Assembly (NCBI GenBank): GCA_032622095.1
Contig: CP136068.1
Span: forward strand, 61,774,025 to 61,838,024
From: Siphonodentalium dalli
Lineage: Eukaryota; Mollusca; Scaphopoda; Gadilida; Siphonodentaliidae
Length of the DNA stretch: 64,000 nucleotides
Direction: 5' to 3'
Shown: positions 9,122 through 32,576 of the stretch, one piece after another
Numbering within the stretch: position 1 is the stretch's first letter
How the letters are laid out: each line of letters begins with the position of its first letter
Made by a program: the position numbers and the translations under genes
The notes under the pieces: generated by a model
Databases searched by the model: none
Told to the model about the DNA's origin: nothing
What the model saw: the letters and a program-made list of their open reading frames with translations, nothing else

Positions 9122-9135
9122 GCCCCTGCGATATG
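9122..9135 (+). repeat. Left terminal inverted repeat
   Basis: GCCCCTGCGATATG matches the reverse complement of the right end, GCCCCAGCGAGATG, at 12 of 14 positions. It starts where the satellite stops (GTGGAC immediately outside). The neighbouring C at 9121 can be assigned either to the element or to the satellite. Confidence 0.7.
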
Positions 9136-9490
9136 ATCATGAATTGTTCATGAATTGTCCATGAACCATTCTTGAACTTTGTTCGTGAAGTATTCACGAA
9201 TGTTCATGAATCATTCATGAACTTAAAATTGGACAACAGAAAGGTTCATGAACAGGGTTCATGAAATATCTAGTTCATGAATATTTTGAGTTCATGAATA
9301 TTCATGAAACTTTGATATTCATGAATAGTTTTAAGTTCATGAATTATTCATGAAACTTAAGGTTTATGAACATGTCCAATTTTAAGTTCATGAATTATTC
9401 ATGAATACTTCTTGAATAAATTTTGTGAATAATTCATGAACATTCATGAACTCAAACTGAAGTTTCATGAACTGTTCATAAAGTCAAAAG
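9136..9490. repeat. Left subterminal TTCATGAA repeat region
   Basis: About 16 exact copies of the 8-bp palindrome TTCATGAA, plus near copies (ATCATGAA, TCCATGAA, TTTATGAA, TTCTTGAA), lie within about 350 bp. Many are flanked by AAG, AG or A and spaced about 10-40 bp apart, some paired (TTCATGAATTATTCATGAA-like arrangements). Elsewhere in the block the 8-mer is rare. In plant CACTA elements, comparable subterminal motif clusters bind the accessory protein and are needed for transposition; that role here is inferred. Confidence 0.85.
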
Positions 9491-10124
9491 TCAATTGAAT
9501 AACATGAACTTTCGTAACAGACACACATTATACATTTGAAAACTATGATGAAATAACCTTAATTGAACTCCCTTTCAATCAGCTGGCAAGGAATACAAAA
9601 ATATCTTGGTTGTTGTTTTCTGATAGAATTTATTGATATTTAACATACGGTACCGAATAACCATGTACTCTTGAGGTCCAAATAAGCATATGCTGCAGAA
9701 TAAGAGTACAAGGTGAAAAGTTCTGCTAAATTCAATAAGAATACTGGGCGGATTAAGAGTACAGGGTGTCAATTTACAAAATGGAAGCAAATCTATATGA
9801 AATTCTATAAGGTTAACCATATATATTTCTCATTTTGTGCACTGTTTGTTCAATGTTGTCATAGGAGTTACCAAACAGACTCCCAGCAATAAGTTTGCAC
9901 TATCTTTTCCTGATCTGATTAAATGCTCCAGCAAATCTGAGATAGGCAGATATTATAAATCTCTTGAAAATCCTGCTTAAAATAAACATTAGTGTTAACG
10001 GACACAAATAAGCACCATACAGGGTGGCAACTTTTCCAAAAATTAATAAACATGGGTATGCCTATTTGGATTCCAAGAGTACAGATTATTTACAGAACAT
10101 CCAGAAAGTAAGAAAGGATACAAT
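9491..10124. other. 3' flank of BEN gene, no gene seen
   Basis: AT-rich sequence between the left subterminal region and the stop codon of the minus-strand BEN gene. The only element I can support is a candidate minus-strand polyadenylation signal AATAAA at 9629-9634 (TTTATT on the plus strand), 490 nt past the stop, so most of this stretch is probably 3' UTR. Short open frames here have no recognisable content. Confidence 0.5.
9629..9634 (-). terminator. Candidate polyadenylation signal of BEN gene
   Basis: AATAAA on the minus strand and the first canonical hexamer I found downstream of the stop codon at 10125-10127. Sequence match only. Confidence 0.35.
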
Positions 10125-13100
10125 TTAAGACGACATCTTTTTAAATTTCATCCTTTCCACTTTCTGGATATTCTGAACCTTCTCGACCATTGTCTTTCGA
10201 GAAAACGATTCACCAAATCTGTCCCGAAGGACAGCACTCATCACGCGGACTTTGTCCTGGTCCATAGCGGGCCTCGGACCATCAGCCCCCGATTTGGCAC
10301 AACATTTCCCACTCAGGGAAGAACCCCGGATCTCTTCCAGGGAAAACAGCTTTCTGAATAGCACTTCAACACCTTCGGTTATCCCCACTTTTTCAACAGA
10401 TTGGCTGAGCTCTGACTTTCTAGATCCATTATAAAGAACTTCATCATCCTCTTTGGATTTCGAAACAGTTTCAACACGACGTTTGAAGCGCCGAAGCTCG
10501 TTCTTCAGCTCTTCAACCTCCTTCTCCAAGGCCATCATTCTTCTATCACTGAAAAGAATTATTCAACACTACTATTAGGTTTCTTCCATATTATTGATTC
10601 ACATCAATTTAAAAGTTGGAAAGTCAGACTAAACTACAGTTGAACAAGATGTTCGCATCAAAGTTGTTGGGTCAAGTTTTTGATGGTTTAATCCACTGAA
10701 TACTTAGTAATGAGCTCATAATCTTCTTCACTGGGTTAAATTTGCTAAAATTACAAAAAGGTCATACTAATATCTCGGGCAAAGACATGACTATTACCAA
10801 TAAATGAAACTCCAGTGAAATTTGTAACTTCAGCTGAAGTTTGTTTGAGTTAATTACATATCAAGGTAAAATTGTGCATATTAATAGGGCCCTGCAAATC
10901 GGCTATTCAAGGCACACGCATTGAATCCAGTACCGGGTATGTTACCATTTTATTGAGGAACATTATAGTCAGTTAGTATTGTGACTGATTGTATGGACTT
11001 ATTAGCGCAAGCAACAATCACACCATGACAAAGAATGAAATACCTTCATCTTTAAGATAAAGTATATACAGGTCCTGTAAAATGTAAATTACTTTTATAC
11101 ATCGTTTTTTTTAATAATCCACACTCAAGATATGTCATTTAATTGACTAGTAGAGACAACATATACATGTTTCACAGATATTATCCTGATACGAAAATAT
11201 TTTATTCCAGTTCAATTATCAATCCTGAATTCTAGATCACCGATATCAAATGGGGGTCATAACTGATAACTCCACCAAGAAAAGTTTAACTCGACTGATT
11301 TGTTGATGTTTGTTTGAACCTTAATCTAGATCAAAATTGGGTTACATTTTTCTAAATGAACCTTTATCACGAGTCCAAGATAAGAATTTCACAACAAAAC
11401 ATTTCCCAAGATAAATGACAATTAGGTTGATTATGTACCTGTTTTTGTTGCTGGCCGTGCCCCTTTCTTTTGTCAACGATGATGGAATTTCTCTTTCCTC
11501 TGAAGAATCTGCAACATAGTAAAATTAACTAAATCAGTCGGAACCGAATAAAGTTGCATACATGTATGTATTATTCAAGAACAATGTCAACATCTGAAAT
11601 TAAACCTTTAAATAGGTAACAAACTCACGGTTCTAAGGATATCTATAAACAAGAGTACAGGTGTACTTTAAATAGGTAACAAACTCACGGTTCTAAGGAT
11701 ATCTATAAACAAGAGCACAGGTGTAGAGTGGAAAAATATGCCCATTAGCCATTTGAATTGTGCTACCGCAAAATACAAATACATGTATATTAGGATAATA
11801 GGATTGAGATATTAAAAATTGACCTGTATGTTGGGCTGACACTGAGCAAAGTAAAAAAAAGGGTCACTAACTGACCACATAAAATACTCTGAATCATATT
11901 CGAACTTGACCTATATTTTGCGCTGATAAACTAGCATACAAATTTTGGTTCAGTTCATATAAACCAGTCTGGAGATTCCAAGTCATAAAATTTGAAAAGG
12001 GTCATAACTTGGTTAAAAAAAAAATGTTCAGAACGAACTCAGAATCAAACTTGATCTATATTTTGGGCTGATATTAATCGCAACGCAATTCAAAATTTTT
12101 GAATTCCACATATAAACCCAAACTAAAATTTAATCAGCCGCAAACCAAAAAATTTTAACAGGCGAACGGACACAAACAGAAGGACTGACTGGTTACAAAA
12201 TACGAAAACAATTTAAAATGGCGTATGCAAAATAATCTCAGGACATAATTAACCTTGACCGGGTTGACTCTTCAGATTAACAATCACTTTCTGATAATTG
12301 GTCATACCTTCTGAAGATCCCAGCTCTTGAATACTATCCTTTGGTTTATTCAAATCTACATGTACAAGTTCTGGTTCTTTTGTTCGTTTTGGACTTGGTT
12401 CATTTCTGTTTGTTTCCGACTCTTGGTCGGCAGCTTTACGTTTTTTAACGTTCTCAGTATCTTCTGTGTCTATAACTGAAAAACAATATAATCTTATATA
12501 TAATCATTCAGAATTTAGACAATAGATCGCAGACACAGGACCCCTGTAGAAAATTTGGTTTACATTTAATTGAGAAAGTTCTGAGAAAACGTCAGTAAAT
12601 GGAGTGATATATATATATTTTACAACATGAGGATAGAATCAGTAGAATCGTATGGAATATGTTCTGTGGTATGACAGAAAGGGAAAAAATGGCTGGCGGG
12701 GGGGGGGATGGGACCTTTAAAGGGACATCTGCCCTACTGGCAGAAAGCCTGGGTATGCTAAAATTAAACTAGAGGTGTGACTGTCCCAATGGGACTAAGG
12801 ATACCCCCGTGTTTTTAAAATACTAAGATGTTTCAAATGTCAGTAAACATTTAGTTAAAATAATAAAATAACAGTTCCCATTGCAGGTGCACAAACCTAA
12901 CCATAATCTTAAACCTATAGACCGAAAAATGTAGGAATAAAAGCTCGACAAAATTATGCATTTGTAAATATGTTCCAAGTCGAAAAAGGGAAATAACTCC
13001 ATAAAAAAAAATCAGACAGACATCATAATCGCAGGTGCACATGTTCTCATGGTACTAAATATCAGTGCCAAGATTAAAAAACATTGACCTAAAAATGTAG

Positions 13101-15164
13101 AAATAAAAGCTCGGACAAAATTACGCATGTTGCAAACAAATTTCTAAGTCGAAAAAGGGAGATAACTCCACCAAAAAATGCCAGACAGACGTCATAATCG
13201 CAGGTGCACAGGTTCCCATGGTGGTCGATGCCTTGCAAAGTTTCACGAATATTTATAAAAAAAACGACTGAGAAAAACTCCGGACAAAGTTGTGTCCATG
13301 GACGGACGGACGGATAAGCTGACTTCAGTATACCCCCCCTAACTTCGTTGTGGGCGTATAATTAACCAGACCAGGCAACAATCAAGATTGTGTATAAAAC
13401 AGCTACAAGTTGGGCATTGATTAACCCCACCCTTGTTACTCGCATGGCCACTGAAGCATGCTGATTGGTCCAGAAATGAAGGAGCCTATAAAAATGGCCA
13501 CCCGTCTTCCGATACAGACATTGCTTTTATATATTTATTCGATAACTTTTCAGATGTGTATTTGTCTTCATCATGCTAATATCATGCAGCAGTAGCATTC
13601 ATAGAAATGAAACCTTTGCAGTATCCATCTTTACTACAACTTTTTAAAAGTTTTCTTGCATATTGTTTTTTTATCAATCAGAAGATCACAGAAATTTACT
13701 CACGGTTAATCAGATTGTCTGCAGGTGGTGAGTATCTATGATTAAGTTGTTTCTTCTTTTTTCTATCCTCAAGATATTTTCGATCATCTGGAAGTATAAA
13801 ATATTCTTAATTCTATCAAATGTTAACACAATAATATTAATATAGGACAATGTTGAAATATTGGGCTGACTCCAATGTTGAAATATTGGGCTGACTTGTT
13901 TTAAATCGTGCATCCAAATATATGGTTACAACAGCCAAATGAAATATGGGAACTATTTTATTAAAAAACATGCCATCAGTATCACTATCAGACTTGATAT
14001 TATTTGTCTTTGAAAGTATCACCATCAAATTCAAAGTCACTATTTTGTGCCACTGCAGACGCTACGATTAAAATCGTACATGTAATTGGGGGAAAATATA
14101 TTTTTGAGAATTATTTTCTGGATTTACATCACTTGACCTAAATTTGAAAAATAAATATAAAATTCAAAAATAGATACACCAACATTATAATGGAACGAGT
14201 TCCAAGCAGACCCACCAGATTATGGCAGATAAAAATATCTTAAATACATGTTGTTTCCAACCACAGGCCTTCTAAACAGTGAGTGATAAATAATTTAAAT
14301 ATTTATTTTATCAATATTTACCTATAAGAAGACATACTCACATAGGTAAATATTAATTAAAAAAAATTAATTATTTATCACTCACTGTTTAGAAGGCCTA
14401 TGTTTCCAACACCATACCAAGTCACACCATCTCCCTCTAAGTCTTAAGACTTGACGACCTCTCTCTAACTTACTTACTTAGTCTAAAGTCTTGACGAAGT
14501 AAAAACATACCTCGAAAATAGGGTATGCAAAAGTCTAAAACATCATGCTATTTTGATCAAATTCGTTACAACACAATACAACAGCTTTTAAAACTTAGCT
14601 TAATGAATCATCCTGTCATTAATTTATTACTTATTAATATTAGTTAGTATGATAAGTAACCGTAGCGGCTTTTGGTACAGACCGTACTGAGTCTGATATT
14701 AATTTCTACCATCGGGGGATTCCCCGGAGACTCGCGGAGTCTCTCATATTTACATGTGTGATGACGTCATATGATTTGTGCTATTTTAATTTTAACAAAA
14801 TTGCAAGCACATAGCATGATTGGTTTCCATAAAAAAATTAATGAATTGTGTTTGTTGAATTGAAAATGAAATGAAAGGAAATTTAAAAAATAAAAACTTG
14901 AAAAGGACCAAATTGTGTGAGATATTCACTAATTCAGCATATAATTTAGAGGGAGGTGGGGCAGCGAGAAAAAAGAATATAAATTCAAGACTTACCACTC
15001 AATTCGCAGATGATGGCTTTATATGGTTTTCCTTTGTATTTGGCTTTGATGATTTCTCCGGCCTTGTATAAACTGACGTCTTTCCTGGGTTCCAATATTG
15101 TTACCACACTGATAACGTTTACCCACTGATCTTCCCATTCGAGCAATGCGTATGTTCCAGCCAT
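10125..15164 (-). CDS. BEN-domain protein, 304 aa, five exons, intact
   Basis: Exons (minus strand, in order) 15164-14996, 13787-13704, 12475-12308, 11508-11439 and 10548-10125 join with canonical GT-AG sites (donors GTAAGT, GTGAGT, GTATGA, GTACAT; acceptors ending CAG), conserved phases 1,1,1,2 and no stop, giving 304 codons plus TAA. Residues 1-56 look like a small beta-barrel (GEIIKAKYKGKPYKA). Residues about 85-140 are charged and hold NLS-like clusters KKRK and PKRTK. A coiled coil spans about 168-197. A BEN domain spans about 225-301: LFSLEEIRGSSLSG, then MDQDKVRVMSAVLRDRF. BEN domains bind DNA, often palindromic sites, and act in chromatin repression. The gene shares its promoter with the transposase gene and lies between the element ends, so I infer an accessory DNA-binding protein of the transposon; a captured host gene is the alternative. 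Confidence 0.85.
10549..11438 (-). other. Intron 4 of BEN gene
   Basis: AT-rich intron of 890 bp with GTACAT donor at its right end and TTCTTTTCAG acceptor next to the BEN-domain exon. No repeat or gene recognised. Confidence 0.75.
11509..12307 (-). other. Intron 3 of BEN gene with repeats
   Basis: Holds the 60-bp tandem duplication at 11607-11726. From about 11860 to 12200 it holds two diverged copies of an interspersed repeat (GGGTCATAACTTGGTT, CTTGACCTATATTTTG and CTTGATCTATATTTTGGG, GAACGGACACAAACAG). This type of sequence is familiar to me from bivalve introns. No coding sequence seen. Confidence 0.65.
11607..11726. repeat. 60-bp tandem duplication
   Basis: The stretch starting TTTAAATAGGTAACAAACTC at about 11607 is repeated immediately from about 11667, with one visible substitution (AAGAGTACAG versus AAGAGCACAG). 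It lies in intron 3 of the BEN gene. Confidence 0.9.
12476..13703 (-). other. Intron 2 of BEN gene
   Basis: Contains a G-run near 12699, an interspersed tandem repeat (about 12870-13370, listed separately) and a plus-strand core-promoter-like stretch near 13440-13520. No coding sequence recognised. Confidence 0.65.
12870..13370 (+). repeat. Interspersed mollusc-type repeat with about 150-170-bp subunits
   Basis: Subunits start with CAGGTGCAC at 12884, 13032 and 13201 and share AAAAATGTAG (12925 and 13091), GTCGAAAAAGGGA and CAGACAGACGTCATAATCG. The 3' part reads GGACGGACGGACGG (about 13302) then TACCCCCCCTAACTTCGTTG and a GTATAATTA end. I recognise this tail style from bivalve genomes, which is the main clue to the organism. 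Confidence 0.7.
13704..13787 (-). CDS. BEN gene exon 2
   Basis: An 84-bp exon bounded by acceptor TTATACTTCCAG and donor GTGAGT, phase 1 at both ends. It encodes a lysine-rich segment beginning DDRKYLEDRKKKK. Listed separately because the short exon is easily missed. Confidence 0.8.
13788..14995 (-). other. Intron 1 of BEN gene
   Basis: Starts at GTAAGT (right end). It holds a foldback element at 14262-14400 and two tandem copies of an 18-nt motif CAATGTTGAAATATTGGG (about 13850 and 13873). Otherwise it is AT-rich sequence without recognisable genes. Confidence 0.7.
14262..14400. mobile_element. Foldback (MITE-like) element in BEN intron 1
   Basis: The arms AGGCCTTCTAAACAGTGAGT near 14265 and its reverse complement ending 14399 form a long inverted repeat. 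They continue through GATAAATAATT and TATTTACCTAT around an AT-rich centre. A 10-bp direct repeat TGTTTCCAAC flanks it at 14252-14261 and 14401-14410, suggesting a target-site duplication. It has no coding capacity. Family not assigned. Confidence 0.75.
14996..15164 (-). CDS. BEN gene exon 1
   Basis: The ATG is at 15164-15162; 56 codons plus one base, then donor GTAAGT. The N-terminal peptide starts MAGTYALLEWEDQW. The first 83 bp lie inside the 2,745-bp duplication, so a second copy of this start exists at 24116, where it is fused to LINE ORF1. Confidence 0.85.
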
Positions 15165-15422
15165 AACGTTAGTTAGCGATACAAGTTAAAACTAGATTTG
15201 AACGAAGAATTGCGTGAAAATCTCGGACCCAATGATCGAATGTTATCAAATTCAAAATCGAACCCAAATTGCGCCAATTCCAATGTCCAATACAATTCCC
15301 CAAATTCCCAAGACTCGACAAGAGAACCAACCAGATCTACTCTTACGGAATTGTGATTCGGTTCCGCCGCAGAATTAGGTGAATTGAATTATGGGAAGGC
15401 ATTCCTGGCAATCAAAACAGAC
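15165..15422. promoter_or_regulatory. Shared divergent promoter region, left copy
   Basis: 258 bp separate the ATG of the minus-strand BEN gene (15164) from the ATG of the plus-strand transposase exon 1 (15423). I see no TATA box at a convincing distance from either; the stretch includes GATTCGGTTCCGCCGCAG and CAATTCCCCAAATTCCC. It is the only upstream region available to the BEN gene, so in this rearranged locus it should still drive that gene, while its plus-strand output meets only orphan transposase exons and then the LINE. Confidence 0.6.
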
Positions 15423-15573
15423 ATGGCTGACGCATCAACTTCAAGTTCCAAAGAAAATAATTTCTGTACTGTTATAATAGACGGAAAAAATCAGTTTGAG
15501 TGCAAATTGTGCCGGCGTTACTTCACGACTAAATTTAGCATTCTCTGCCATTTGAAATCGGCACATGACATGA

Positions 15574-16581
15574 GTACGTAATATTTAAATTGAGAATACT
15601 GAGTCAAGAACTTTCAGAACTTATACTAAGTTATAGAAGTTATAACTCGCTAGCACTGCACCGAAAATTGCGAAATTGATGATTGCAATGAATCGAATGA
15701 TAGACCATGTCAGTATGTGATGTATGATGTCGGCTGGTAGTCTAGTCTGACGATAATACAATTGCCTTGAAATTTTATCATGGGCTAATAATATGGGAAC
15801 TGTCTGAGAGGAGTCAGGAATGTTGTAAAAAATAAAACATTCATTGATTCAAAAACATGTTCAAAATTTCAAACTATTACTACTAGTACTTAGTGGTATT
15901 ACTATTAGTACTACTACTAGTATAGTTAGTTCATATAGTTAGTCATGAATGTAGTGCGTATCCTTCTACATTACTATAGTATAGTAGGCCTAGTAATTGC
16001 CCCCCCCCCCCAGTTAACATCAGTGAGATGAATCCCGATCACCAAGTGTTGTGATAACACACTGTGATAATGAACCATTTGCATCAAATGTTTGTTTTGA
16101 AAGCACCCCTTTTAATTAGTCTTCACTTACCTTAAGTGCGTTCAGTTGTCAAAACATCGTGTCATTCTTTACTCCAGTCCACGCATTGACATAATTAATG
16201 AATAAACACATGTTTTGTTGGTCAAAATCTTTAATAATATATCATCAAAGAACATAAAAGAACATAATCACTATTAACAATTTCTGGACAACCCGCCCTT
16301 ATTTATCGGGACAACCCGCCCCGAAAATAGCAGAGGGGCGGGTAGTCCCGTTCCCGGCCAATTTTTTTTTACTTTTTAGTATTGGGAGGAATAAATTTGC
16401 ACCCCCCTTTGAGTCAAGTCAAACTTGTATACATACTTTTATAAGATGCAAAAGGTAAATGTAGCACATATTGATATACATCTCTGGCATTTGATTCAGT
16501 GAAATTAAGGTCCCAAAGAAAAGGATGACTTTTGAAAGTTTCAACCTTTAAATACAGTTTTGTTATTATTTTTTATTTTAG
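15574..16581 (+). other. Intron 1 of orphan transposase copy
   Basis: Bounded by donor GTACGT and acceptor TTTTATTTTAG. It includes simple-sequence runs (ACTACTAGTA-type near 15880-15940, a C-run at 16000) and a GC-rich hairpin at 16307-16350. No gene seen. Confidence 0.7.
16307..16350. repeat. GC-rich inverted repeat in intron
   Basis: CGGGACAACCCGCCCC and GGGGCGGGTAGTCCCG form 16-nt arms with one mismatch around a 12-nt loop. The arms contain GGGGCGGG, an Sp1-like GC box, within otherwise AT-rich sequence. The same structure recurs in the right copy about 9,761 bp downstream. Confidence 0.75.
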
Positions 16582-16803
16582 GTCCTGTGAAAAGAATGAA
16601 AAAAAGATATCTTGAAGACTCAAATATTCCTGTACCTCGAAGCACTGTATATTACAAAAAGAAAATAAACTCAATGGCTATGGCAGATGGTGGAGCTTCA
16701 TTTTCCACAGACCATGTTCCACAGACAGATGATGTTTCGTACACAGGACATATTTCATACCAAGATCGTGTTCCAGCCACACACCACGACAATATCCAAA
16801 GAG

Positions 16804-17507
16804 GTATGCCTACTAGTGTTTGATCAAGACATGTGGGTCGTTCATATACAGGTTAAGTTTGAATTTGTGTTTGATCCAATTATTTTTCCCAGAGTTATGG
16901 GCCTTTCGACTTGAATTTTTTTTTTTTTATAATTTTCTGTACGAGGGTACCTTCATGGTGTTATCAACTCCTCCTGCAGGTTTGATCGTAGATATTTGAA
17001 ACTTCAGAGTATTGTTACCCACATATTGGAGATGTGCAACATTTACGTATATAGATGACAGATATTTTTTTGTTTTTAATTGGTGTAAAAAAACTATTTA
17101 TTTTTCATTTATCTTTGCTTTTCAGCTCATTTCTCGAAACAAATTTCTGTTCTTTTTTATATGTAGTTTGGAGCCTCCTCTTTTGAGTTTCTCTGCAGTA
17201 CACAATGTTAATACTGCATTTTGATCAGTAATTTCATCGGATAAGTTACAGTGTCAATGACACTTTCATTCACGTCATACTTTCCATAGTATTATAAAAA
17301 CACATGTGCAAAACCGATTTAAAATTATGACATAACCTCAAATATGGTCTATTGATTTTTAAGGGGAATAAGTGTGTAATAGCTCTAGTTGTCCATGCAG
17401 TAGGGACATTGTTGCATTTAAGTTTTTCTTTGTCAATACATATATATATATTCATGTTGTTACCTTGAGGGCTTTCATGTAATTTCATGAATATGCTTCT
17501 TTTTCAG
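16804..17507 (+). other. Intron 2 of orphan transposase copy
   Basis: Bounded by GTATGC and TTCTTTTTCAG. T-runs and a TATATA microsatellite near 17440. No gene seen. Confidence 0.7.
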
Positions 17508-17826
17508 ATGATCACAGCTTTGAGGATGTTCAAGAAATTGGAGATGATTTCACAATGAGGAATGAACAAATTAGAATGGTTAACTTGAGTGATGACATTG
17601 AGATGTTGTCTTCTGATGGTAATTTGTCTTATTCAACAGATTCAACAACTGAGGATGAATTTCTAAGTTCCTATTCTTCCTCTGAATCTGATGAAGATTC
17701 CACTAAATCTGATGAAGATACAACAGTAGACTGTGGTAATGACTTATCGACTGAGAAGTTAATTCTTTCTTGTTTTCTAAGGAATCACCTGTCAGCCACC
17801 ACCGGTAGAGATATTTTATCTACAAT

Positions 17827-18671
17827 ATATATATATCTATCTTTAATCCTCCGATAACGAAGAGTGGATAAACATACATATTAGTTTTTTTTACAAAGAA
17901 CTCAAGAACAAAAAACAATACGACAGAAAGACAAGTTTGATCAACAACAAAGACTACCCTTCATGTTAATAACATATTTACATAGACCTAAGTGCACACA
18001 TTCGGGCCATCATGCACGTATTACATACTTACATATTTGCAACATGTATGCATCCATTCATGCACGTAGCAACATTAACCCCTTACATACTGACGAACAC
18101 ACGCAACGGAACGCACAAGTACACCTGTCGTACATATATACTTACATGTGCATCAATCCATACATCCATACATACAAGCCTATTACATACCTACTTTCCT
18201 GGGTCCTGATATACAGCCACACAGACTCACGTACGTATACATGTATACGTGCATACGCACAGTCACCCATACCCACATATACTCGTTACACATATCCATA
18301 CATATGCACATACTCAAGTACACGGTGACACAACAGTACCCTCGCACATTCATTCAACAACAAAAAATCAATAAGTCAATATAGAGGCCATTTATGGACC
18401 AATAGCTTGCAGCGAGTATATGAATTATAGGATGTAAGAGAAAGTGAAAGACGTTCAAGTAACGCGATGAGCGTTATCATTTTGGAATTGTCCCGACTCT
18501 GTTCGCGGGATATCAGCATTGCAATATTTTTTTTTTTTTTTAAATACTCGCTACATACCATCGGTCCACCCCCTCTATTTACCACAACATGGTGGCGACC
18601 AGAGCGTCCAGTCAACAGTACGTAATGATTAATCGTTTTCAGCACCGTGATGTCCCTCTGTTAGCCAAAAA
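17827..18671 (-). other. LINE 3' untranslated region
   Basis: Follows the ORF2 stop. It contains a T-run near 18526-18541 (A-run on the LINE strand), a 400-bp stretch rich in TACATA/CACACA words (about 17960-18360) and ends in ATATATAT. Open frames on the plus strand here are low-complexity by-products. Confidence 0.75.
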
Positions 18672-21600
18672 TTATTGCGTTAGTTTACTATAATTTGCCC
18701 ATAATTTTGCTGTATTTCTAACGAAAAATGTGACAAATTTGTATTTATCAAGAAATGGTATCAAGTTGTCAGCAATGTCGGGTATGTGCCCTAAGAATAT
18801 TGCCGCAAGATCTGGTGTGTTCAGATTGTCCAGCATAATGTAGAAATTGATCCCAAAGTGATCAATTATCTTGTACCATATAACATTTCGAATTTCGCAA
18901 CCTGATGGGCAATCGAACAATATGTGCAGTACTTTGTGTGCATACGGATGCAGACACGCATCACAAACTCCCTTTTGGTCATATGTTGTTTGTGATATTA
19001 TTCTTCCCACCTGAAGAAAGTCGTCTTTGAATTGAGGATGCGCACGGCATACGCGCCATAAAAATGACAGCGAAAATTCACTTTGAATTTGACTGAAAAT
19101 ATAGAGCCACGGATCACCAGAAATTGTTGTTTTCCAAATTTCACTATACTTTGTATCAATGGCTACCTTTACAAGATTCTTCCAACTATCTTTAGTTGGG
19201 AAGGTATTATCATCAGCAAAGTTCGTAATGAAATCAAGTAAACCATATCTTAATAAGATTATGATTAGCTCATTCAAAAATGATTTTGAGGGGCGTATTG
19301 TGTTAGTTAAGGATTCATGCATTCGTAAGAGAAATATCTCAGATGAAGATTTTTTGGGGTCTCCTCTGCATAGGGATCCCATAAGAGAAAGTTTTCTTTT
19401 GTCAATAAGTGTGGCAAGGGAGGGTATACCGACTGAGCCCTCTACAATGACAGTTCTTGCTCGCGTGGGCAATCCCTGAAAGTTCTTTAAACAAAATCGG
19501 TGTGTTTTCTCCAGGCGGTCTGTATCACTCTTGCCTAATTGCCACAAGAGTTCAGACCCATAAAGAGATCTGGGAAGGATGATAGATTTGTATATCTTAC
19601 AGCAACTGACAGGGGTTGTTCCACCAGCATATAGGCCCGAATTTGAGAGCATAAAATATGTGTCTCTTTGTTTTTCTCTTATTGCTTCCACAAGGGAGTG
19701 ATTGAAATTGTATTTGTCAAAGAGGATACCAAGGTGTGTAGCTTCTGTTTTTTCTGAAATTTCTTGACCTAGAAGATACATCTTCCTGTTTTGAATGCAC
19801 CGCGCGAATTCAGCTTTTGGTTCATTAAACACTATTGTGACAGTTTTGCTTGGGTTATAGAGAAATCGCCATTTCCTACTGTACTGGGAACATATATTAA
19901 GAAGGTTCTGTAGCCCACGTTTTGACAATGAGAGTAAGACCATATCATCAGCCTGTGTGGGTGCAGCGCAACAAACTGAATAAACCATTAAACCGTAGTT
20001 TGAGTTGGCTAAGTCAGAAATGAGTGTGTCAACGTAGAGCATGTACATCAGAGGTGAGAGAATACTTCCCTGTCTGGCTCCTTGTTTCAGTAAGAAGTAC
20101 TCAGAATATTTACATTTATACCTCACACAGCATTGAATATTTGTTAATAAACAACACAGTATGCGCCACATGGAACCAGTTATGCCCCGCTGGTGGAGTT
20201 TGTACAAGAGGCCATCGATCCAGACAGTATCGAAGGCCTTTTGTACATCAAGGAAGCAAGCAAATAGTTTGCTGCCTCTTTCAGCTGTGTAAGATATACA
20301 TTCTTTCAGGAGGAAAGAAGTCGCTAGACAATTTGAATTTTTCTGAAACCCGTTTTGAAGTGGGTGAATATTTGTGAGATGTGGGGCATTGGTTTCCAAC
20401 CGGGATTTTAAAAGTTTCTCAAACAATTTATACATTACTGGCAATATGGTGATAGCCCTATAATTGTTGAAACTATGTGCTGACTTGTTTCCTCCCTTAA
20501 AAAGTGAGATCATTATGCCTTTTTTTGCATCATCTGGAACATGAGTGAATTTTAACATACATGAAAATAAAAAAGCAATACATTTCAAAATAGTTTCACC
20601 ACCATATATAATGTGTTCATAAACTAAACCGTCATAACCCTGTGACTTGTTCTTGTTCAAAGTGGGAATAAGAGAAGACAGTTCACTTATACTGACAGGG
20701 TAAGTAAGATGATCATCTAGACTCTTTGAAATTATATCATCTTTCAATCTTTTAACTGTGTCGGTAACGACCGAGTAGTGATTGTCATCGAACAATGAGT
20801 TATTCAATGGTGAGTATAATGTTTTGTAATAGGAAGACCAGGCACTTAATATGTCATTTGTATCTCGGATAATCGAGCCATCATGTTCGAAATATGAGGC
20901 ACCCAGAGTGCCGTTATTTGCTCTTTTTGCGTTTAGTAATCTGAAGAAGTGATCATTATCTATCTCAGCGCAGCGATCAATTTCGTTCAGTTGTTCTCTC
21001 ATAAAGTCGGATGAGATGGACCGATATAAGCTCCGAAAGTGTCTCTTTGAGTCTTTATACAGCTGGAAAGAGCTGTGTTCGTGACCACGCGGTCTACCCT
21101 CTTTAATCCAATCATTTCTAAGAATGGACATTTTTTTGTGAAGTTCTTTCAGATTTTCATTCCAAAATGGTTTTTTGTGACTTTTGAATTTACATGTTGG
21201 AATCGATTGTTGCGCTGCTTGTTTCATAGAAGCTACCAATGAATTGTAATACAAGTCCAAATTGATTGTATCGTGTACACGCGTTTCACTGTGTGGCAAT
21301 AAGGAAGCTAATATATGTTGGTACTGTTTAACTAAATTTTCATCTTGTGCGAGCAAACGCCACTTCAATTTTGAGATATCCGCACTCGACCCATTGGAAT
21401 CAGGTATGGTGCCCGCGTCACAGTTAAGTTCAACTTGCACCGGTCTGTGATTCGAAACATTGAGTGCAGAATCATCAATTATGCGAACGTTAGCTACGAA
21501 AGGTAAGTCAGAGTATTTTATTATCACATGGTCAATATTTGAGCAATCACTCCCATCATGATTAACATATGTTGAACAAATATCATCACAAAGACTATTC

Positions 21601-22193
21601 TCTATCAGTGATGTACATTCTGCCTTTTTCAACAAATTTTTTAGAAGTTTTTGTCGTCTACCTGGTTTACTGAGACTAGCATTGAAGTCACCCATCACAA
21701 CAAGTGTGCCCAAATGTGAGTAGCTTTTAATGACATCTTTAACTTTCATAATATAGTCTTCATATGCAACAATTGGATAATTAGATGATGGTAAATATAC
21801 CTGAAATATATATATATATTTATGCTTAGATAGTCTATATTGGAGACCAACAATTCTGTCATCATTAAATCATAGATTTGATACATGATCGTCATATTCT
21901 GTTTTCCAAAAGAGAGCGACCCCGCCTTTATAGCGACCCCGCTGTTGGGGAAGCCGTTGTGAAAAATCACAAACAGTATGGCATCGGTAATGTTTCGAAA
22001 TTGAATTCATGAAGCTCGCACTCTTAGCTGGAAGCCAGTGTTCAGATATGCCACAGAAATCTATAGTCTGCCCATCCAATATTCTACTCAAATAAGGGCC
22101 GCTTGACATGATGCCAGTCGCGTTCCATGTACAGAAGAGCATTTTGCTGTGAAAATATAACAAAATGACGCACATAAGATGAAGTGCGTACAT
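18672..22193 (-). pseudogene. LINE ORF2: APE endonuclease-reverse transcriptase, one premature stop
   Basis: One frame of 1,173 codons plus stop from 22193 to 18672, interrupted only by TGA at 21870-21872 (codon 108). Start may be 22193 or the later ATG at 22142, just before the endonuclease (LFCTWNATGI). Endonuclease motifs: ISEHWL, VVMGDFNA, SNIDHVI, VSNHRPV. Reverse transcriptase motifs: KSQGYDG, NYRAITILPVMYKLFEK, FLDVQKAFDTV, GARQGSILSP, then PTQADDMVLLS with the catalytic DD at codons 749-750 (19944-19949), where Gln replaces the usual Tyr. A Cys/His cluster (VCDACLHPYAHKVLHILFDC) lies near the C-terminus. The stop follows CTA and precedes TTT, consistent with a CGA-to-TGA change. Otherwise the frame is undamaged, so the insertion is young. 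Confidence 0.9.
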
Positions 22194-22388
22194 TTAAAAG
22201 GTTGTGCTTAATAGCGATTCAAATATTCATATAATATTTGGTGTGTTATAAAGACAAATGCATATCCAGCATAAGAAAATATAAAGCATGAAAACAAACA
22301 GTAAATATCCAACTATATTACTTTTAAAATATTCAGTTATAACCGATTTGCTTCAAGTTAAAGAAGCAACTCCTACGGACGTACATGA
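22194..22388 (-). other. LINE inter-ORF spacer
   Basis: AT-rich 195 bp between ORF1 stop and the first possible ORF2 start. No motif recognised. Confidence 0.7.
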
Positions 22389-24116
22389 TTACCACCGATC
22401 ACGTTTTGAAGTGATATACTTGCTGTAAGCATACTCAGACAGCCAGGGACGACAGAATGACCCCTTTGGCCAAAAAAAAGAATCTGTGACCATATCGACA
22501 TGCTCGTTGTATACGTTGACTCTTGCATACGACTTATTTTTCTGATCACTATAATACAAACGAACAATAGAGAACTTGACGCCTCTACGGCTAAGGTAGC
22601 GTTCAATAGTGCGTCGATCTAGATCATTACTGATGTTCCCTAAGTAAAATCGTTCTGTTTTTATGGGTTCTGCATTCCGTCGGCGATGTTGATTGCTTTG
22701 GTGTTCAAATTCATCATTTTTATGTTGACCATTGACGTCTCCTGTGAATGTGCTGTCTGTAGCGTTATCTCCGTTATAAGTTATGTTGGCATCGAACTGA
22801 GTAGCTGCATGTAATGAGTGTCTTGATTTCGGTATACGTTCATCTTCACAGTCAATACTATTCACACTTGTATCATCCTTGCTGGATCCACGAAAAGGTT
22901 GAATACACGTTACACTGTGTGGTGTGTCTAGTTGTGATTTAACTGGAGAGGGAGATTTGGATCTTGGTACAGTGTGGGTTGGGGTATACAAATTTGGAGA
23001 GTCATGCATAGTTTTGTTTGAAGAAATATTTTGGTTGAAGAATAGTTCATTACATTTTTGTTCAAAACCTCCCATGAAATCTTTAACTGCTTCTTGGAAT
23101 AACTTACTTTCCCATACTTCATTTTTTGCGTCGGGCTGTTTTGCTTTGTTTTGGGTACCTTTTGATTTCAGTTTATGGATTTCACCCTTGACAGATGCAA
23201 TTGCAGATGTGTTTGAGTTACTCTTCTTAAGTGATTCCTCAACACAATCGAGAACGTCACCAACATCTCGTTTCACAAGAACTAATTCAGATCGAAGTTT
23301 AGTTACACCACTATATTTGTCATCCTGAATCCTCTCTACCGTATCACGAATATCATTGGAGGCGATCTGAGTCACATCTACTTCCCCTTCGAGAGCATTC
23401 ACACGAGCGCTGAGGTTGCTGATTTTCCCGTTAATGAGAGGGATATCTTCTGAGATAAGTTTGTCGAGTGCTGTATTTTTCGAGCGAAGAACTGACATTT
23501 CTTTCTTTAGTTCAATGAGACTAGATGACATCATTTTAACCAACGCGCCATGAGAACATGACATGTCATTTGTGCTTGAACCAGTTACTTGTGAGGCTGT
23601 GCTTGTCCGAATATTACGTTGACCACTTATCATGTCATTTAGTAAACATTGGTCCTCATCCACTGAGAATAAAAAGAGATCATATATGTCCCTAACTAAT
23701 TTATGGCTTAGAAAATTTGCAGATTCGTTTCTCGGCTTGGTCCTGTTTTTCAGCACGGCAGAAGAATCTATTAGGAATGCCGGTGTTGCTTTTATTGCTG
23801 CAAATACAACTGACCGCATCAGTTTTAACCTACTGACATCATCGCACACTTTAAGAGTTATGAGCAGAAATGATTCTTTTGTGACACAGTGAATATAGTT
23901 TGATATCCATCCCACAAATGCTGAGCAGTCACTTTTTGCGTTTTCCGGCGTTTTTATAAAGTCGTCTAGTGAATTTACTGCCAAAAGAAGATCATCCTCT
24001 GGTGACTTAAACGATAATGGAACTTCATCTTCGTTCCTGGGTTCCAATATTGTTACCACACTGATAACGTTTACCCACTGATCTTCCCATTCGAGCAATG
24101 CGTATGTTCCAGCCAT
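22389..24116 (-). CDS. LINE ORF1 fused in frame to BEN gene start
   Basis: Open frame of 575 codons. The first 27 residues (starting MAGTYALLEWEDQW) are the duplicated N-terminus of BEN exon 1; from about residue 28 (NEDEVPLSFKSPEDD) it is LINE ORF1. ORF1 has a coiled-coil stretch around residues 190-300 (LKKEMSVLRSKNTALDKLI onward), a Ser/Pro/Thr-rich linker (RSKSPSPVKSQLDTP) and an RRM-like C-terminus (RFYLGNISNDLDRRTIERYL, later NKSYARVNVY). Such ORF1 proteins bind RNA and form the retrotransposon particle with ORF2. The fusion places ORF1 behind a copy of the divergent promoter at 24117-24374 and supplies an ATG that the truncated LINE otherwise lacks near its 5' end. Whether it is expressed is unknown. 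Confidence 0.85.
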   Translation of the reverse strand: MAGTYALLEWEDQWVNVISVVTILEPRNEDEVPLSFKSPEDDLLLAVNSLDDFIKTPENAKSDCSAFVGWISNYIHCVTKESFLLITLKVCDDVSRLKLMRSVVFAAIKATPAFLIDSSAVLKNRTKPRNESANFLSHKLVRDIYDLFLFSVDEDQCLLNDMISGQRNIRTSTASQVTGSSTNDMSCSHGALVKMMSSSLIELKKEMSVLRSKNTALDKLISEDIPLINGKISNLSARVNALEGEVDVTQIASNDIRDTVERIQDDKYSGVTKLRSELVLVKRDVGDVLDCVEESLKKSNSNTSAIASVKGEIHKLKSKGTQNKAKQPDAKNEVWESKLFQEAVKDFMGGFEQKCNELFFNQNISSNKTMHDSPNLYTPTHTVPRSKSPSPVKSQLDTPHSVTCIQPFRGSSKDDTSVNSIDCEDERIPKSRHSLHAATQFDANITYNGDNATDSTFTGDVNGQHKNDEFEHQSNQHRRRNAEPIKTERFYLGNISNDLDRRTIERYLSRRGVKFSIVRLYYSDQKNKSYARVNVYNEHVDMVTDSFFWPKGSFCRPWLSEYAYSKYITSKRDRW

Positions 24117-24374
24117 AACGTTAGTTAGCGATACAAGTTAAAACTAGATTTGAACGAAGAATTGCGTGAAAATCTCGGACCCAATGATCGAATGTTATCA
24201 AATTCAAAATCGAACCCAAATTGCGCCAATTCCAATGTCCAATACAATTCCCCAAATTCCCAAGACTCGACAAGAGAACCAACCAGATCTACTCTTACGG
24301 AATTGTGATTCGGTTCCGCCGCAGAATTAGGTGAATTGAATTATGGGAAGGCATTCCTGGCAATCAAAACAGAC
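24117..24374. promoter_or_regulatory. Shared divergent promoter region, right copy
   Basis: Same 258 bp as 15165-15422. On the plus side it leads into the complete transposase gene (ATG 24375, G at -3 and +4). On the minus side it now leads into the BEN-LINE ORF1 fusion. No TATA box recognised. Confidence 0.55.
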
Positions 24375-24525
24375 ATGGCTGACGCATCAACTTCAAGTTC
24401 CAAAGAAAATAATTTCTGTACTGTTATAATAGACGGAAAAAATCAGTTTGAGTGCAAATTGTGCCGGCGTTACTTCACGACTAAATTTAGCATTCTCTGC
24501 CATTTGAAATCGGCACATGACATGA

Positions 24526-26342
24526 GTACGTAATATTTAAATTGAGAATACTGAGTCAAGAACTTTCAGAACTTATACTAAGTTATAGAAGTTGGTGTAA
24601 ACAATATTTATTCCCAATACAAAACAAGTTGAATATTTTACAAAAATGCTAATGGATGAGTATGGGTGATTGGAAAGGGATGAGACAACAAGCCTATTGT
24701 GGCTTTTTTGTAAGTCCTCTCCCAGATCGCTTAAATTTTCCGAACTACATAAGGCCGTTCGAGCGTGTCAGACGGGAATTTTTCTGGTTTGTACTTTAAA
24801 TAACTTATTGGTGATTTTGATATAGATCGCACTCAACAAAAGATAACAAGAGATAAGATAAGAACTGGAGTGGGGTGTGATTAAGGAATTAAAGGTAACC
24901 AATGGGACGAAAGGAGAGTAGATAGGTTTAAGAAAGGTCAGAAAGATAGGATGGTCAATGGGGGCGGGGTAGTTTAACATTCGGCTGTAGAATTATATGT
25001 CAATTGTGTATAACTTGGCGTACAGAGACTACATGAGTTAGCTGGGCAGTCAGGCTTTCCGAATTATGACATTATGTATGACTTTATATATGACTCAATG
25101 GCAGAAGACATGTGACATAGTATTACGTTTAGAATCGTTTTGTACTAATTATGTATCTTTGTGCGGCCTCGAAAATACTATGATTTTCCCTAATGGAACT
25201 TTCGGGTGAACCCTCGAGTAGGGTTCTTTCTGATAATATTATGTTTGGTAGAGATGATAGCAATTCCAATCTTGATGCCTGGTATAAATGGCATTCTAAC
25301 AGGTAATGGTGGGCTGTTTCAACAGCACCGCATGCACAATATGGGTCGGGCCTAACAAAATTGGTCATGAGGTCGAAATTCAAATTACTACATAGAAGTT
25401 ATAACTCGCTAGCACTGCACCGAAAATTGCGAAATTGATGATTGCAATGAATCGAATGATAGACCATGTCAGTATGTGATGTATGATGTCGGCTGGTAGT
25501 CTAGTCTGACGATAATACAATTGCCTTGAAATTTTATCATGGGCTAATAATATGGGAACTGTCTGAGAGGAGTCAGGAATGTTGTAAAAAATAAAACATT
25601 CATTGATTCAAAAACATGTTCAAAATTTCAAACTATTACTACTAGTACTTAGTGGTATTACTATTAGTACTACTACTAGTATAGTTAGTTCATATAGTTA
25701 GTCATGAATGTAGTGCGTATCCTTCTACATTACTATAGTATAGTAGGCCTAGTAATTGCCCCCCCCCCCCCCAGTTAACATCAGTGAGATGAATCCCGAT
25801 CACCAAGTGTTGTGATAACACACTGTGATAATGAACCATTTGCATCAAATGTTTGTTTTGAAAGCACCCCTTTTAATTAGTCTTCACTTACCTTAAGTGC
25901 GTTCAGTTGTCAAAACATCGTGTCATTCTTTACTCCAGTCCACGCATTGACATAATTAATGAATAAACACATGTTTTGTTGGTCAAAATCTTTAATAATA
26001 TATCATCAAAGAACATAAAAGAACATAATCACTATTAACAATTTCTGGACAACCCGCCCTTATTTATCGGGACAACCCGCCCCGAAAATAGCAGAGGGGC
26101 GGGTAGTCCCGTTCCCGGCCAATTTTTTTTAACTTTTTAGTATTGGGAGGAATAAATTTGCACCCCCCTTTGAGTCAAGTCAAACTTGTATACATACTTT
26201 TATAAGATGCAAAAGGTAAATGTAGCACATATTGATATACATCTCTGGCATTTGATTCAGTGAAATTAAGGTCCCAAAGAAAAGGATGACTTTTGAAAGT
26301 TTCAACCTTTAAATACAGTTTTGTTATTATTTTTTATTTTAG
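24526..26342 (+). other. Intron 1 of transposase gene
   Basis: Donor GTACGT, acceptor TTTTATTTTAG. Equivalent to 15574-16581 but lengthened by the inserted LINE fragment at 24594-25391. C-run near 25758 and the GC-rich hairpin near 26068-26111. Confidence 0.75.
24594..25391 (-). mobile_element. 5'-truncated LINE fragment with 9-bp target duplication
   Basis: ATAGAAGTT flanks the insertion at 24585-24593 and 25392-25400; the left repeat copy has a single uninterrupted site. On the minus strand an open frame from 25391 to 25129 encodes the C-terminal end of a LINE polymerase with a Cys/His knuckle (CACGAVETAHHYLLECHLY). It is followed by a 535-bp 3' UTR with AATAAATATTG near the end. It is a different family from the 6.2-kb LINE, whose C-terminal Cys cluster differs. 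It inserted after the 2,745-bp duplication arose. Confidence 0.9.
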
Positions 26343-26564
26343 GTCCTGTGAAAAGAATGAAAAAAAGATATCTTGAAGACTCAAATATTCCTGTACCTCG
26401 AAGCACTGTATATTACAAAAAGAAAATAAACTCAATGGCTATGGCAGATGGTGGAGCTTCATTTTCCACAGACCATGTTCCACAGACAGATGATGTTTCG
26501 TACACAGGACATATTTCATACCAAGATCGTGTTCCAGCCACACACCACGACAATATCCAAAGAG

Positions 26565-27266
26565 GTATGCCTACTAGTGTTTGATCAAGACATGTGGGTC
26601 GTTCATATACAGGTTAAGTTTGAATTTGTGTTTGATCCAATTATTTTTCCCAGAGTTATGGGCCTTTCGACTTGAATTTTTTTTTTTTTATAATTTTCTG
26701 TACGAGGGTACCTTCATGGTGTTATCAACTCCTCCTGCAGGTTTGATCGTAGATATTTGAAACTTCAGAGTATTGTTACCCACATATTGGAGATGTGCAA
26801 CATTTACGTATATAGATGACAGATATTTTTTTGTTTTTAATTGGTGTAAAAAAACTATTTATTTTTCATTTATCTTTGCTTTTCAGCTCATTTCTCGAAA
26901 CAAATTTCTGTTCTTTTTTATATGTAGTTTGGAGCCTCCTCTTTTGAGTTTCTCTGCAGTACACAATGTTAATACTGCATTTTGATCAGTAATTTCATCG
27001 GATAAGTTACAGTGTCAATGACACTTTCATTCACGTCATACTTTCCATAGTATTATAAAAACACATGTGCAAAACCGATTTAAAATTATGACATAACCTC
27101 AAATATGGTCTATTGATTTTTAAGGGGAATAAGTGTGTAATAGCTCTAGTTGTCCATGCAGTAGGGACATTGTTGCATTTAAGTTTTTCTTTGTCAATAT
27201 ATATATATATTCATGTTGTTACCTTGAGGGCTTTCATGTAATTTCATGAATATGCTTCTTTTTCAG
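26565..27266 (+). other. Intron 2 of transposase gene
   Basis: GTATGC donor and TTCTTTTTCAG acceptor; same as 16804-17507 apart from a TATA microsatellite shortened by 2 bp. No gene seen. Confidence 0.75.
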
Positions 27267-27848
27267 ATGATCACAGCTTTGAGGATGTTCAAGAAATTGG
27301 AGATGATTTCACAATGAGGAATGAACAAATTAGAATGGTTAACTTGAGTGATGACATTGAGATGTTGTCTTCTGATGGTAATTTGTCTTATTCAACAGAT
27401 TCAACAACTGAGGATGAATTTCTAAGTTCCTATTCTTCCTCTGAATCTGATGAAGATTCCACTAAATCTGATGAAGATACAACAGTAGACTGTGGTAATG
27501 ACTTATCGACTGAGAAGTTAATTCTTTCTTGTTTTCTAAGGAATCACCTGTCAGCCACCACCGGTAGAGATATTTTATCTACAATGAAAAAAGCATTTCC
27601 AAGTTGCTTTTCTCTGCAACAGATAAAATATGAAAGTCTCTGGGAGTTTTCAGGCAATCAAGAGGACTATGCCAAGGAGATCCATTAATGTGACAAATGT
27701 AACACAATTTTCCCCAAAGATCCTGAAGTGAGATGGTGTGAGAGCTGCCAAAATCCTCGCTACAAAGAGACTGGATCCAAGCAACCACGGGGGAGTTTCG
27801 TGTTGGCCAACATCAAGAGACAGTTAGCCAATTTGATAAAATCTCCAG

Positions 27849-29332: not shown

Positions 29333-31155
29333 GAGTATGGGAAGACATTACTAGAAATAAAAGGGAAATAAAATCAAGGCATCAAGACGACATTCATAAT
29401 ATAAAAGACATAACAGATGGATCATTATATAAGGACTTGGTTAAGGATGGTGGATTCTTGAATGGGGAGAATCACAATTTAACATGTATGATCAATACTG
29501 ACGGCTTGAGTTTATATTCATCATCCAAGATTCAATTATGGCCAATTTTCCTGGCCATAAACGAACTCACTCCCCGCAAGCGGTTTGCAAGGGAAAACAT
29601 AATCCTTGCTGGAATTTGGCAAGGTAGGGGTAAGCCCCCATTCAAACAGTTTTTTACATCATTTTGTTCTGAAATGAACGAATTGTACTTGAAGGGAACA
29701 ACGATCCACATCGATGATGAAGAAATCACATTGAAAATGAAATTGATCTGCGGAACATATGACCTCCCTGCAAAGGCAGCGGTGATAAATATGACTCAGT
29801 ACAATGGTGCTGAATCATGTATTTCCTGTGAGGACCCAGGGAAGTCAGTGAAACAAGGGAAAGGTACAAGCAGGTGTTTTCCATATAGACCTTTGAATGA
29901 GCGATATCAAATGCGCACCAACGCATCTGTTAGAACTTCCATGAAAAAGGCGACGGATAAAAAGCGTGTGAAAGGCTTCAGAGGCTCCTCTGCACTAACA
30001 GATCTGGAGTACTTTGATGTTGTAATTGGAACACCTCCCGATTATATGCACGCTGTATTGCTGGGCTCCACCAAGACACTACTATACAAATGGGTTTCTC
30101 CAACTGAAAGCAAAAAAGATTACTTCATTGGCGATAAGATAAAGACATTATCCAAGAGGCTCAGTTCTGTACAACCTCCACAATACATGGAAAGACTGCC
30201 GCGTGATTTGGAAAAGAACTACTCAAACTTCAAAGCCACAGAATTGCAGGCCTGGCTTCTGTATTATGCTGCACCAGTTCTGAAAGGAATTCTGAAGGAC
30301 AAATATCTGCAGCATTTCATGTTGTTGTCCGAGGGAATATATCTCCTTCTTGGTGATAATATCACACAAACAGAGCTACAGAGAGCAGAGCAGCTACTGA
30401 ATGAATTTTTCAAAGAGTTCAGTGCCTTATACTCCGAGGGTTCTTGTGGATTGAACATCCATAATATAGGACTCCATTTAGTTGAATATGTGCGATATTT
30501 GGGACCATTGTGGAACTGGAGCTGTTTCCCATTCGAGGACTGCAATGCAATGTTGAAAAAAACTGTCCATGGAACTGGCAATGTAACCAAACAGGTTATG
30601 AAACTCAGGGAAGCTCAAACTTCATTACGGAACAACACACCTTCAAGTTTGTGTGATAACGCCAGGAATTGGAAAACTATGAAAACTACAATGAATTGTA
30701 AAGTAGCAGGAGCCTTGTTGGAACTGCAGGAGGATGAATATATGCATGATATTCTTTGCAAGTTGAATGCAAATAAATCTGAAGTCAAGAAAGTCAATCG
30801 CATAACGGTGTATGGCAGAAAGTGTTTTTCCGAGAGCTATTCAAGAATGAAGAGACGTGTTTGTCATACATTTCTTACAACAAAGAAAACAGCTGTTGAT
30901 GTGAAATATTTTGTTTTACACCAAGAGTCTCAACATGTGTATGCTGTTGCAATCCCCTTTCAAGTGTCTGATTGGGGCATTGGTGATTTATCAGCAGGTA
31001 GACATCTGGGTATTGCCAAACGGTGCAGTGCGTTCGAACTTATTCGTGCAGATGAACTGGTTGAAAGCCTATGGTTTATTGATGTGAAAGATGATACTAA
31101 TGATATATTTATTTCCAGAATGCCAAATAATCTTGGACATTCTGTTTTCAAGTGA
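29333..31155 (+). CDS. Transposase catalytic exon (exon 4)
   Basis: A 1,823-bp open exon after a strong acceptor (CCTTTTTTTCAG), starting GVWEDITRNK and ending in TGA at 31153-31155. It carries all three presumed catalytic residues (D375, D462, E720 of the spliced protein), the CxxC and DYMH motifs, and a C-terminal tail of about 160 residues (SYSRMKRRVCHTF onward). The frame is open upstream to 29215, but that stretch is MITE and intron sequence without an ATG. No damage is visible in this exon. Confidence 0.9.
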
Positions 31156-32138: not shown

Positions 32139-32202
32139 ATTGACAATTTCCATACATTAGTAGTTGCAATATATATCTGTATGACCTGATAAATCAGAAT
32201 TG

Positions 32203-32560
32203 ATTCATGAAATTCACAAGAGGTTCATGAAAATTTCATAATCAGAATATTATCATTGATTCATGAAATTCATGAACATTTCATCATCAGAATTGATTCA
32301 TGGAAATTTTGTCATCCGAATTGATTCATCAAAATTTCATCAAATTTCATCAAACCCGTTCATGAGAAATTCATCATCACAATTGATTCATGAAATTCAT
32401 GATAAGTTCATTAAACAAGTTCATGAATGTTCATGAACCAAGTTCATGAACAGTTCATGAATTAAGTTCATGAACATATTTCATGAACCGATTGTGAACA
32501 TTCATGAACTGTTCATGAACATTCATGAACGTTCATGAAAGTTCATCACTTCATGAATTC
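32203..32560. repeat. Right subterminal TTCATGAA repeat region
   Basis: About 16 exact TTCATGAA copies plus degenerate ones (TTCATCAA, TTCATGAG, TTCATGGA) in 358 bp, densest in the last 150 bp next to the terminus. The composition mirrors the left end. Because the motif is its own reverse complement, both ends present the same sites. Confidence 0.85.
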
Positions 32561-32574
32561 CATCTCGCTGGGGC
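32561..32574 (-). repeat. Right terminal inverted repeat
   Basis: CATCTCGCTGGGGC is the reverse complement of GCCCCAGCGAGATG and pairs with the left end at 12 of 14 positions. The satellite resumes with AGGCAGGAACTC at 32577. Confidence 0.7.
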
Positions 32575-32576
32575 TG

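Follow-up and report, generated by a model that had tools for sequence, protein, structure and literature searches.

Which kind of element interrupts the satellite DNA at this locus, and what might the BEN-domain gene that it carries do for it? The window, i.e., the whole stretch of 64,000 nucleotides analyzed here (G000:C8:61774025-61838024 of the 2.23-Gb genome of Siphonodentalium dalli), is filled at positions 1-9121 and 32577-64000 by a 26-bp satellite with many unit variants, so that the island standing in it at 9122-32576 has sharp borders. This island is a single transposon; it belongs to the animal CACTA (TRC/EnSpm) branch of DNA transposons and has two genes, a transposase gene and a BEN gene, in opposite orientations. 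By its transposase and its ends it is an element of a known kind (animal CACTA/TRC). We hold with moderate confidence that the BEN protein acts at the array-bearing ends of this animal CACTA element as a partner comparable to TNPA of the plant element En/Spm.

The ends of the element were investigated by comparison with each other and with other copies. Terminal inverted repeats (TIRs) lie at 9123-9135 on the left (CCCCTGCGATATG; the G at 9122 belongs either to the repeat or to the flank) and at 32561-32573 on the right (CATCTCGCTGGGG, identical in copies C7a and C3e). The left end, GCCCCTGCGATATG, and the reverse complement of the right end, GCCCCAGCGAGATG, start with GCCCC and agree at 12 of 14 bases, which is modest evidence alone, since 21 of 20,000 random pairs taken inside the element scored as well. 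The recurrence of the breakpoints in other copies is stronger proof: the left breakpoint CCCCTGCGA was found with different flanks in four copies (C3a, C3b, C3d and C7a), and the right terminus TCGCTGGGG also closes C7a and C3e. The TIRs reported in an earlier note on this DNA are indeed present and recur elsewhere, but they are short.

Inside both ends we observed arrays of TTCATGAA, a palindrome with a CATG core. This motif occurs 35 times in the window, versus 2.07 occurrences expected and a maximum of 5 among 100 shuffles; 16 exact copies form the left subterminal array (9147-9471), 16 form the right one (32204-32557), and 3 lie elsewhere in the window. The surrounding bases favor RTTCATGAAY. 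The two clusters had been described as mirror images; their 16 sites each are confirmed, but the site being palindromic, the mirror image is uninformative. A triple pattern of TTCATGAA was also found in five contigs of the viral_contigs collection, with 3 to 8 sites each in the stretch counted.

The transposase gene lies on the plus strand and comprises four exons, its full length being judged against P0003 (923 residues). Exon 1 (24375-24525), which encodes a C2H2-like finger, was delimited by gene modeling and comparison with P0003; exons 2 (26343-26564) and 3 (27267-27848, with one in-frame stop codon) come from the gene model, and exon 4 (29333-31155) is backed by Pfam, relatives and alignment. 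Exon 4 matched Transposase_21 (E 3.6e-9, above gathering) and DUF1258 (E 1.2e-9), and 248 relatives of its open reading frame (ORF) were found at E 1e-3, the best being 60% identical. Among the matches listed, the best named relatives are from the bivalves Mytilus and Saccostrea; Haliotis, a fish and a hemichordate are represented as well. No relative was found in viral_contigs or genome_contigs. The core residues of the exon 4 motifs NTDG, DLPAK, PDYMH and FPFED, which we take to hold the DDE residues, are invariant or nearly so in 24 aligned sequences. The DDE transposase gene recognized previously is thus of the Transposase_21 and DUF1258 type, but it is interrupted by the stop codon in exon 3.

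The BEN gene lies on the minus strand, with four exons, 276 codons and GT/AG introns. Its exon 1 (used copy, 14996-15164) encodes a 56-residue N-terminal domain with 13 full-length matches in the genome; exons 2 (12308-12475) and 3 (11439-11508) rest on the gene model and are 98% and 98.6% identical in C7a, respectively; and exon 4 (10125-10548), supported by the gene model, Pfam and its pattern of divergence from copy C5a, encodes a coiled coil and the BEN domain. The match of exon 4 to Pfam BEN (PF10523) reached E 3.7e-6 and 27.5 bits, against a gathering score of 23.2, and that of C7a reached 25.2 bits. The claim of an intact BEN-domain gene was thus borne out, the gene being free of stop codons in the window. 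Its protein is very divergent. The N-terminal domain had no Pfam match, NCBIfam gave no useful match, and a PDB sequence search with the window BEN exon returned no BEN domain among 6 matches at E 10. A search of 5.8 billion proteins yielded nothing at E 1e-3 for the BEN protein and nothing at E 10 for residues 178-276, both searches being limited to proteins of at least about 152 residues, so that single-exon BEN ORFs of about 145 residues would escape detection. No relative of the BEN exon was found in viral_contigs. A small inverted-repeat element with 46-nucleotide arms, 87% complementary, lies at 14259-14405 in BEN intron 1.

We then asked whether the two genes belong together. A search of the host genome with the left end gave 59 rows, with the array part present at 19 places, and six of these, in addition to the window, were retrieved for comparison. 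One of them, C7a, is complete: it spans about 16.9 kb, carries both genes between the same ends, has a flank different from that of the window, and contains neither the duplication described below nor the long interspersed nuclear element (LINE). Both genes between the same ends are therefore shown in two insertions with different flanks, so that, as far as the copies examined go, the concern that other transposase copies might never carry the BEN gene does not apply. The island could instead have been a chance nest of unrelated elements in satellite, as the LINE and a further insert nested in it might suggest, but C7a refutes this by having the same order from one end to the other while lacking the LINE, and we give the idea practically no credence. 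The transposase of C7a is broken, with AGG at the position of the start codon and a frame break in exon 4; the BEN frame is open throughout in the window and in C7a (286 codons). No copy among those examined had both genes unbroken.

BEN exon 4 was present in 7 of the 7 left-end loci examined, of the 19 found; its frame is intact not only in the window and C7a but also in C5a, and is broken in C3a, C3b, C3c and C3d. These last five copies have BEN exons and no close transposase in the 13 to 29 kb fetched, far matches (26-38%) being seen in C3a and C5a only. In C5a, the left end is missing its outermost 101 bases, and the left end of C3c, known from the left-end search, lies just beyond the fetched stretch. 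C3e is a fragment from the right end that includes part of the transposase. On contig C7, 12 left ends pair with 12 right ends, with 11 spans of 16.9 to 17.0 kb and one of 19.9 kb, and all 12 copies match BEN exon 1 and transposase exon 4. They are spread over 5 Mb (G000:C7:18.8-24.0 Mb) in both orientations. Independent transposition of these copies was rejected, since the flanks of the six compared are 99.5 to 100% identical over at least 636 bases; the C7 copies look like one insertion amplified. In C3a (L014-L016), a piece of the right part (R1 and some array) is found within BEN intron 3, an arrangement that looks like a product of faulty gap repair.

Selection was measured as the NG86 ratio of nonsynonymous to synonymous divergence (dN/dS). 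For BEN exon 4, this ratio was 0.14 between the window and C5a (dS 0.60, dN 0.08), 0.13 between C7a and C5a, and 0.28 between the window and C7a (six changes); for BEN exons 1-3, it was 0.17 between the window and C7a (five changes). BEN exon 4 is thus kept by purifying selection between copies, as seen in one lineage pair and one exon. The transposase gave 0.24 (exon 1, two changes), 0.55 (exon 3, three changes) and 0.73 (exon 4) between the window and C7a, and 0.53 between the window and C3e, all of these transposase values being comparisons between decayed copies. Exon 4 of the BEN gene also diverges more between copies than its flanks do (10125-10548 compared with C5a, C3b, C3c and C3d): per 60-base step, the window differs from C5a by 7 to 29% in most of the exon versus 2 to 9% in the flanking intron and downstream. 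This excess might have arisen if the exon was exchanged with a diverged lineage or if synonymous sites are themselves under selection.

CACTA elements capture host sequence, and the BEN gene could be such a captured host gene, carried as a passenger that has no function for the element. The purifying selection between copies and the presence of exon 4 at all left-end loci examined both argue against this. Moreover, when the whole genome was searched with BEN exon 1, 17 rows were obtained: 12 from C7, a further 2 from the window, of which one is cut by the LINE, and 3 from other places. Of the 17, 14 belong to this family, 1 lies by another transposase and 2 are unplaced; no close host donor appeared at that sensitivity. 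The BEN gene is accordingly multi-copy in the host genome and under purifying selection, and not the single-copy gene that the earlier note had named as the case against its proposal. The exon 1 row by another transposase (C6:232593192-232593311; 45%, E 1.4e-4) is antisense and 5.9 kb from a 38% transposase match at C6:232599241.

A first-exon homologue also stands upstream of a 49% identical transposase. The transposase search of the genome gave at least 69 rows (68 of 457 candidates scored), and among the matches listed, those outside C7 are 31 to 92% identical; three diverged loci, C1t49 (49%), C3t61 (61%) and C6 (42%), were read. C1t49 has, antisense to and upstream of its transposase, a 57-residue homologue of BEN exon 1 (score 95, reached by 0 of 2,000 shuffles) with a splice donor at the same position; the first exon of the C1t49 transposase itself was not found. 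In C3t61, a weak exon-1-like ORF with the same donor position lies 477 bp from the transposase, measured from ATG to ATG, and scored against C1t49 at a level reached by 1 of 2,000 shuffles. Neither locus was among the 17 rows of the exon 1 search. These diverged loci show an antisense first exon, not a whole BEN gene, and C3t61 shows it weakly. With these points against it, we consider the passenger explanation very unlikely.

The earlier note had the two genes transcribed divergently from one promoter and had overlooked what lies between them. The genes are indeed on opposite strands, and C7a has a single shared intergenic region of 241 bp; in the window, however, this region is duplicated, one copy per gene. 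A LINE on the minus strand at 17827-24030, not seen in C7a, contains ORF1 (22389-24030) and an ORF2 region with RVT_1 (18672-22193, stop near 21870), both on the minus strand. It is bordered by two copies of a 2,748-bp direct duplication. The left copy (15079-17826) comprises most of BEN exon 1, the intergenic region and transposase exons 1 to part of 3; the right copy (24031-27585) is 0.07% diverged from it and is broken by a nested 798-bp insert of its own (24594-25391) with a 9-bp direct repeat, ATAGAAGTT. The simplest reading of 15079-27585 is insertion of the LINE with a very long (2.75-kb) target duplication. Since the intergenic region was duplicated together with the first exons on both sides of it, the LINE insertion itself broke neither gene: each was left with a complete first part, the BEN gene using the left exon 1 and the left intergenic copy (15165-15422; 258 bp from ATG to ATG), and the transposase gene using the right ones (intergenic copy 24117-24374). 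The usable start codons of the two genes are therefore 9.2 kb apart in the window copy. The intergenic region is a predicted bidirectional promoter.

To which branch does the element belong? Animal TRC elements (SmTRC1 and others) are described in passages of PMC1636069 as having CCC ends and 2-bp target duplications. The present element resembles them in its Transposase_21 transposase and in its terminal repeats, which start with CCCC, and differs from them by its long TTCATGAA arrays and its separate opposite-strand BEN gene, the same passages describing for TRC an alternatively spliced ORF and mentioning no second gene. Plant CACTA elements were the other comparison: a short motif forms arrays inside both ends here as in those elements, but the ends do not start with CACTA.

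The 2-bp duplications were seen only in short relatives. The right-end search also matched elements of 1.5 to 1.8 kb, twelve of which were fetched; they contain 15 to 29 TTCATGAA sites each, their ends read CCCCTGYG.. and mostly ..ATCTCGCCTGGG, and in the five compared, the likeness to the window is confined to ends and arrays. Their right end was placed after GGG because the flanks then match. Both ends were readable in 10 of them (the left end of L043 and L044 was not), and 8 of the 10 show 2-bp target duplications (TA, TA, TT, GC, TT, AA, CT and TG), matching flanks being absent in L034 and L047. L034 and L038 are 99.94% identical over 1,756 bp and lie on different contigs (C4 and C3), indicating recent movement. 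At the window copy itself, a candidate duplication GC was not claimed, since the joined site has 0 matches in satellite. Altogether, the term "animal CACTA" used previously fits the TRC branch better than plant CACTA proper.

How could the BEN protein serve such an element? We propose that it binds, perhaps as a dimer via its coiled coil, the palindromic RTTCATGAAY in both subterminal arrays and would thereby help the transposase to bring the ends together; it may also regulate the promoter between the two genes. Its role would then be like that of TNPA, via an unrelated DNA-binding fold, and such a transposase/BEN pair would mobilize in trans the short elements that consist of ends and arrays. 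The BEN domain of NACC1 selects ACATGT, with a CATG core, and prefers CATG-core palindromes, as reported in PMC7764960 and PMC11472053. Since TTCATGAA shares this core, BEN is the natural candidate for the array binder, and by this analogy we infer that the BEN protein would bind TTCATGAA as a TNPA-like partner.

The BEN protein could bind the arrays in another capacity, as a regulator that represses the shared promoter or wards off host silencing and is not needed for the cut. VANC of VANDAL elements, for example, keeps host silencing off its element. The short distance between the genes (241 to 258 bp) is consistent with such a function, as is the description of BEN proteins as chromatin factors in passages of the BEN literature. 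However, the arrays lie at the ends of the element, and no TTCATGAA was found in the intergenic region at 15165-15422; moreover, the short relatives keep the end arrays, which points to a role in transposition. We consider a purely regulatory function rather unlikely.

It is also conceivable that the N-terminal C2H2-like finger of the transposase binds TTCATGAA and that the BEN protein has a different task or another DNA target. Bivalve homologues retain the finger exon, which is also present, at 46% identity, in C3t61, and a relative in which no BEN gene was detected exists (C6, 42%). On the other hand, BEN domains are known binders of CATG palindromes, as the NACC1 passages indicate, and the BEN protein is conserved by selection, both points being compatible with finger binding as well. 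We judge this alternative, too, to be somewhat improbable.

Returning to the BEN protein as TNPA-like partner, several observations weigh against it. The transposase's own finger could also bind the arrays. The BEN domain of C5a scores 20.2 bits, under the Pfam gathering cutoff of 23.2, and a single-sequence structure model places five helices in the BEN part but is poor, with a mean predicted local distance difference test (pLDDT) score of 53. The proposed role fits the CATG-core binding of NACC1 by analogy, but the alignment to NACC1 BEN is at shuffle level (192 of 500 shuffles reach its score), so that the CATG-contact residues cannot be assigned with confidence. With the right end placed after GGG, neither the window copy nor C7a was found to have a target duplication, and the 19.8 kb of C3e contain no BEN gene. 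In C1t49 and C3t61, BEN exon 4 was not found by tblastn, and no BEN domain was detected in the minus-strand ORFs scanned, 10 of the 17 listed; the first-exon score of C3t61 against the window (31) was reached by 67 of 2,000 shuffles. No TTCATGAA array was found in either locus or in C6 (42%), whose 13 kb also contained no significant first-exon homologue. Copies with 75 to 89% transposase identity at C3:16166056 and C3:13865533 were left out of the loci read for BEN, and two exon 1 matches (C3:50394563 and C3:50577961) are near no transposase match among the matches listed.

A broader version of the TNPA-like reading is that an animal CACTA lineage has been paired with head-to-head BEN partners as a TNPA equivalent since before the 38-49% transposase families split, that the end motif is particular to each element and BEN protein and evolves along with them, and that some host BEN proteins descend from such genes. 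We advance this tentatively and consider it unlikely.

Among known systems, En/Spm has short-repeat arrays inside both ends, as the present element does. It likewise combines a transposase with a second DNA-binding protein, but TNPA is unrelated to BEN and arises from the same unit by alternative splicing, according to passages of PMC1636069, whereas the BEN gene is separate and on the opposite strand; the ends also differ, starting here with CCCC and not with CACTA. BEN-solo and NACC proteins share with the present protein a BEN domain near the C terminus, but they are host chromatin factors, in contrast to the element-encoded protein described here. In VANDAL (Mutator-like) elements, VANC is an accessory protein acting on short clustered motifs; both the transposase superfamily and the protein differ from those of the present element. 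We found no account of a BEN/CACTA-transposase pairing in the open-access literature (titles and abstract starts, Repbase being outside this scope), and passages of PMC5704228, PMC11075544 and PMC4574769 do not describe it.

The element provides a case of an accessory gene in an animal transposon for which purifying selection has been measured. If the TNPA-like role is true, two kingdoms would have solved the repeat-rich CACTA end with a second protein of unrelated DNA-binding folds. BEN and RTTCATGAAY would then form a concrete candidate protein-site pair, with the recently moved short elements as substrates, and the BEN-domain chromatin proteins of animals could have come from such genes. 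A lead to other element-linked BEN genes is DUF4806, a BEN subtype in multi-copy genes of zebrafish Chr4 according to a passage of PMC11075544 that cites Pan et al. 2023. Finally, at L039-L040 (C3:62556300-62576100), positions 16287-16982 of the reverse complement show that a 58-bp piece of transposase exon 4 has become a minisatellite of about a dozen units.

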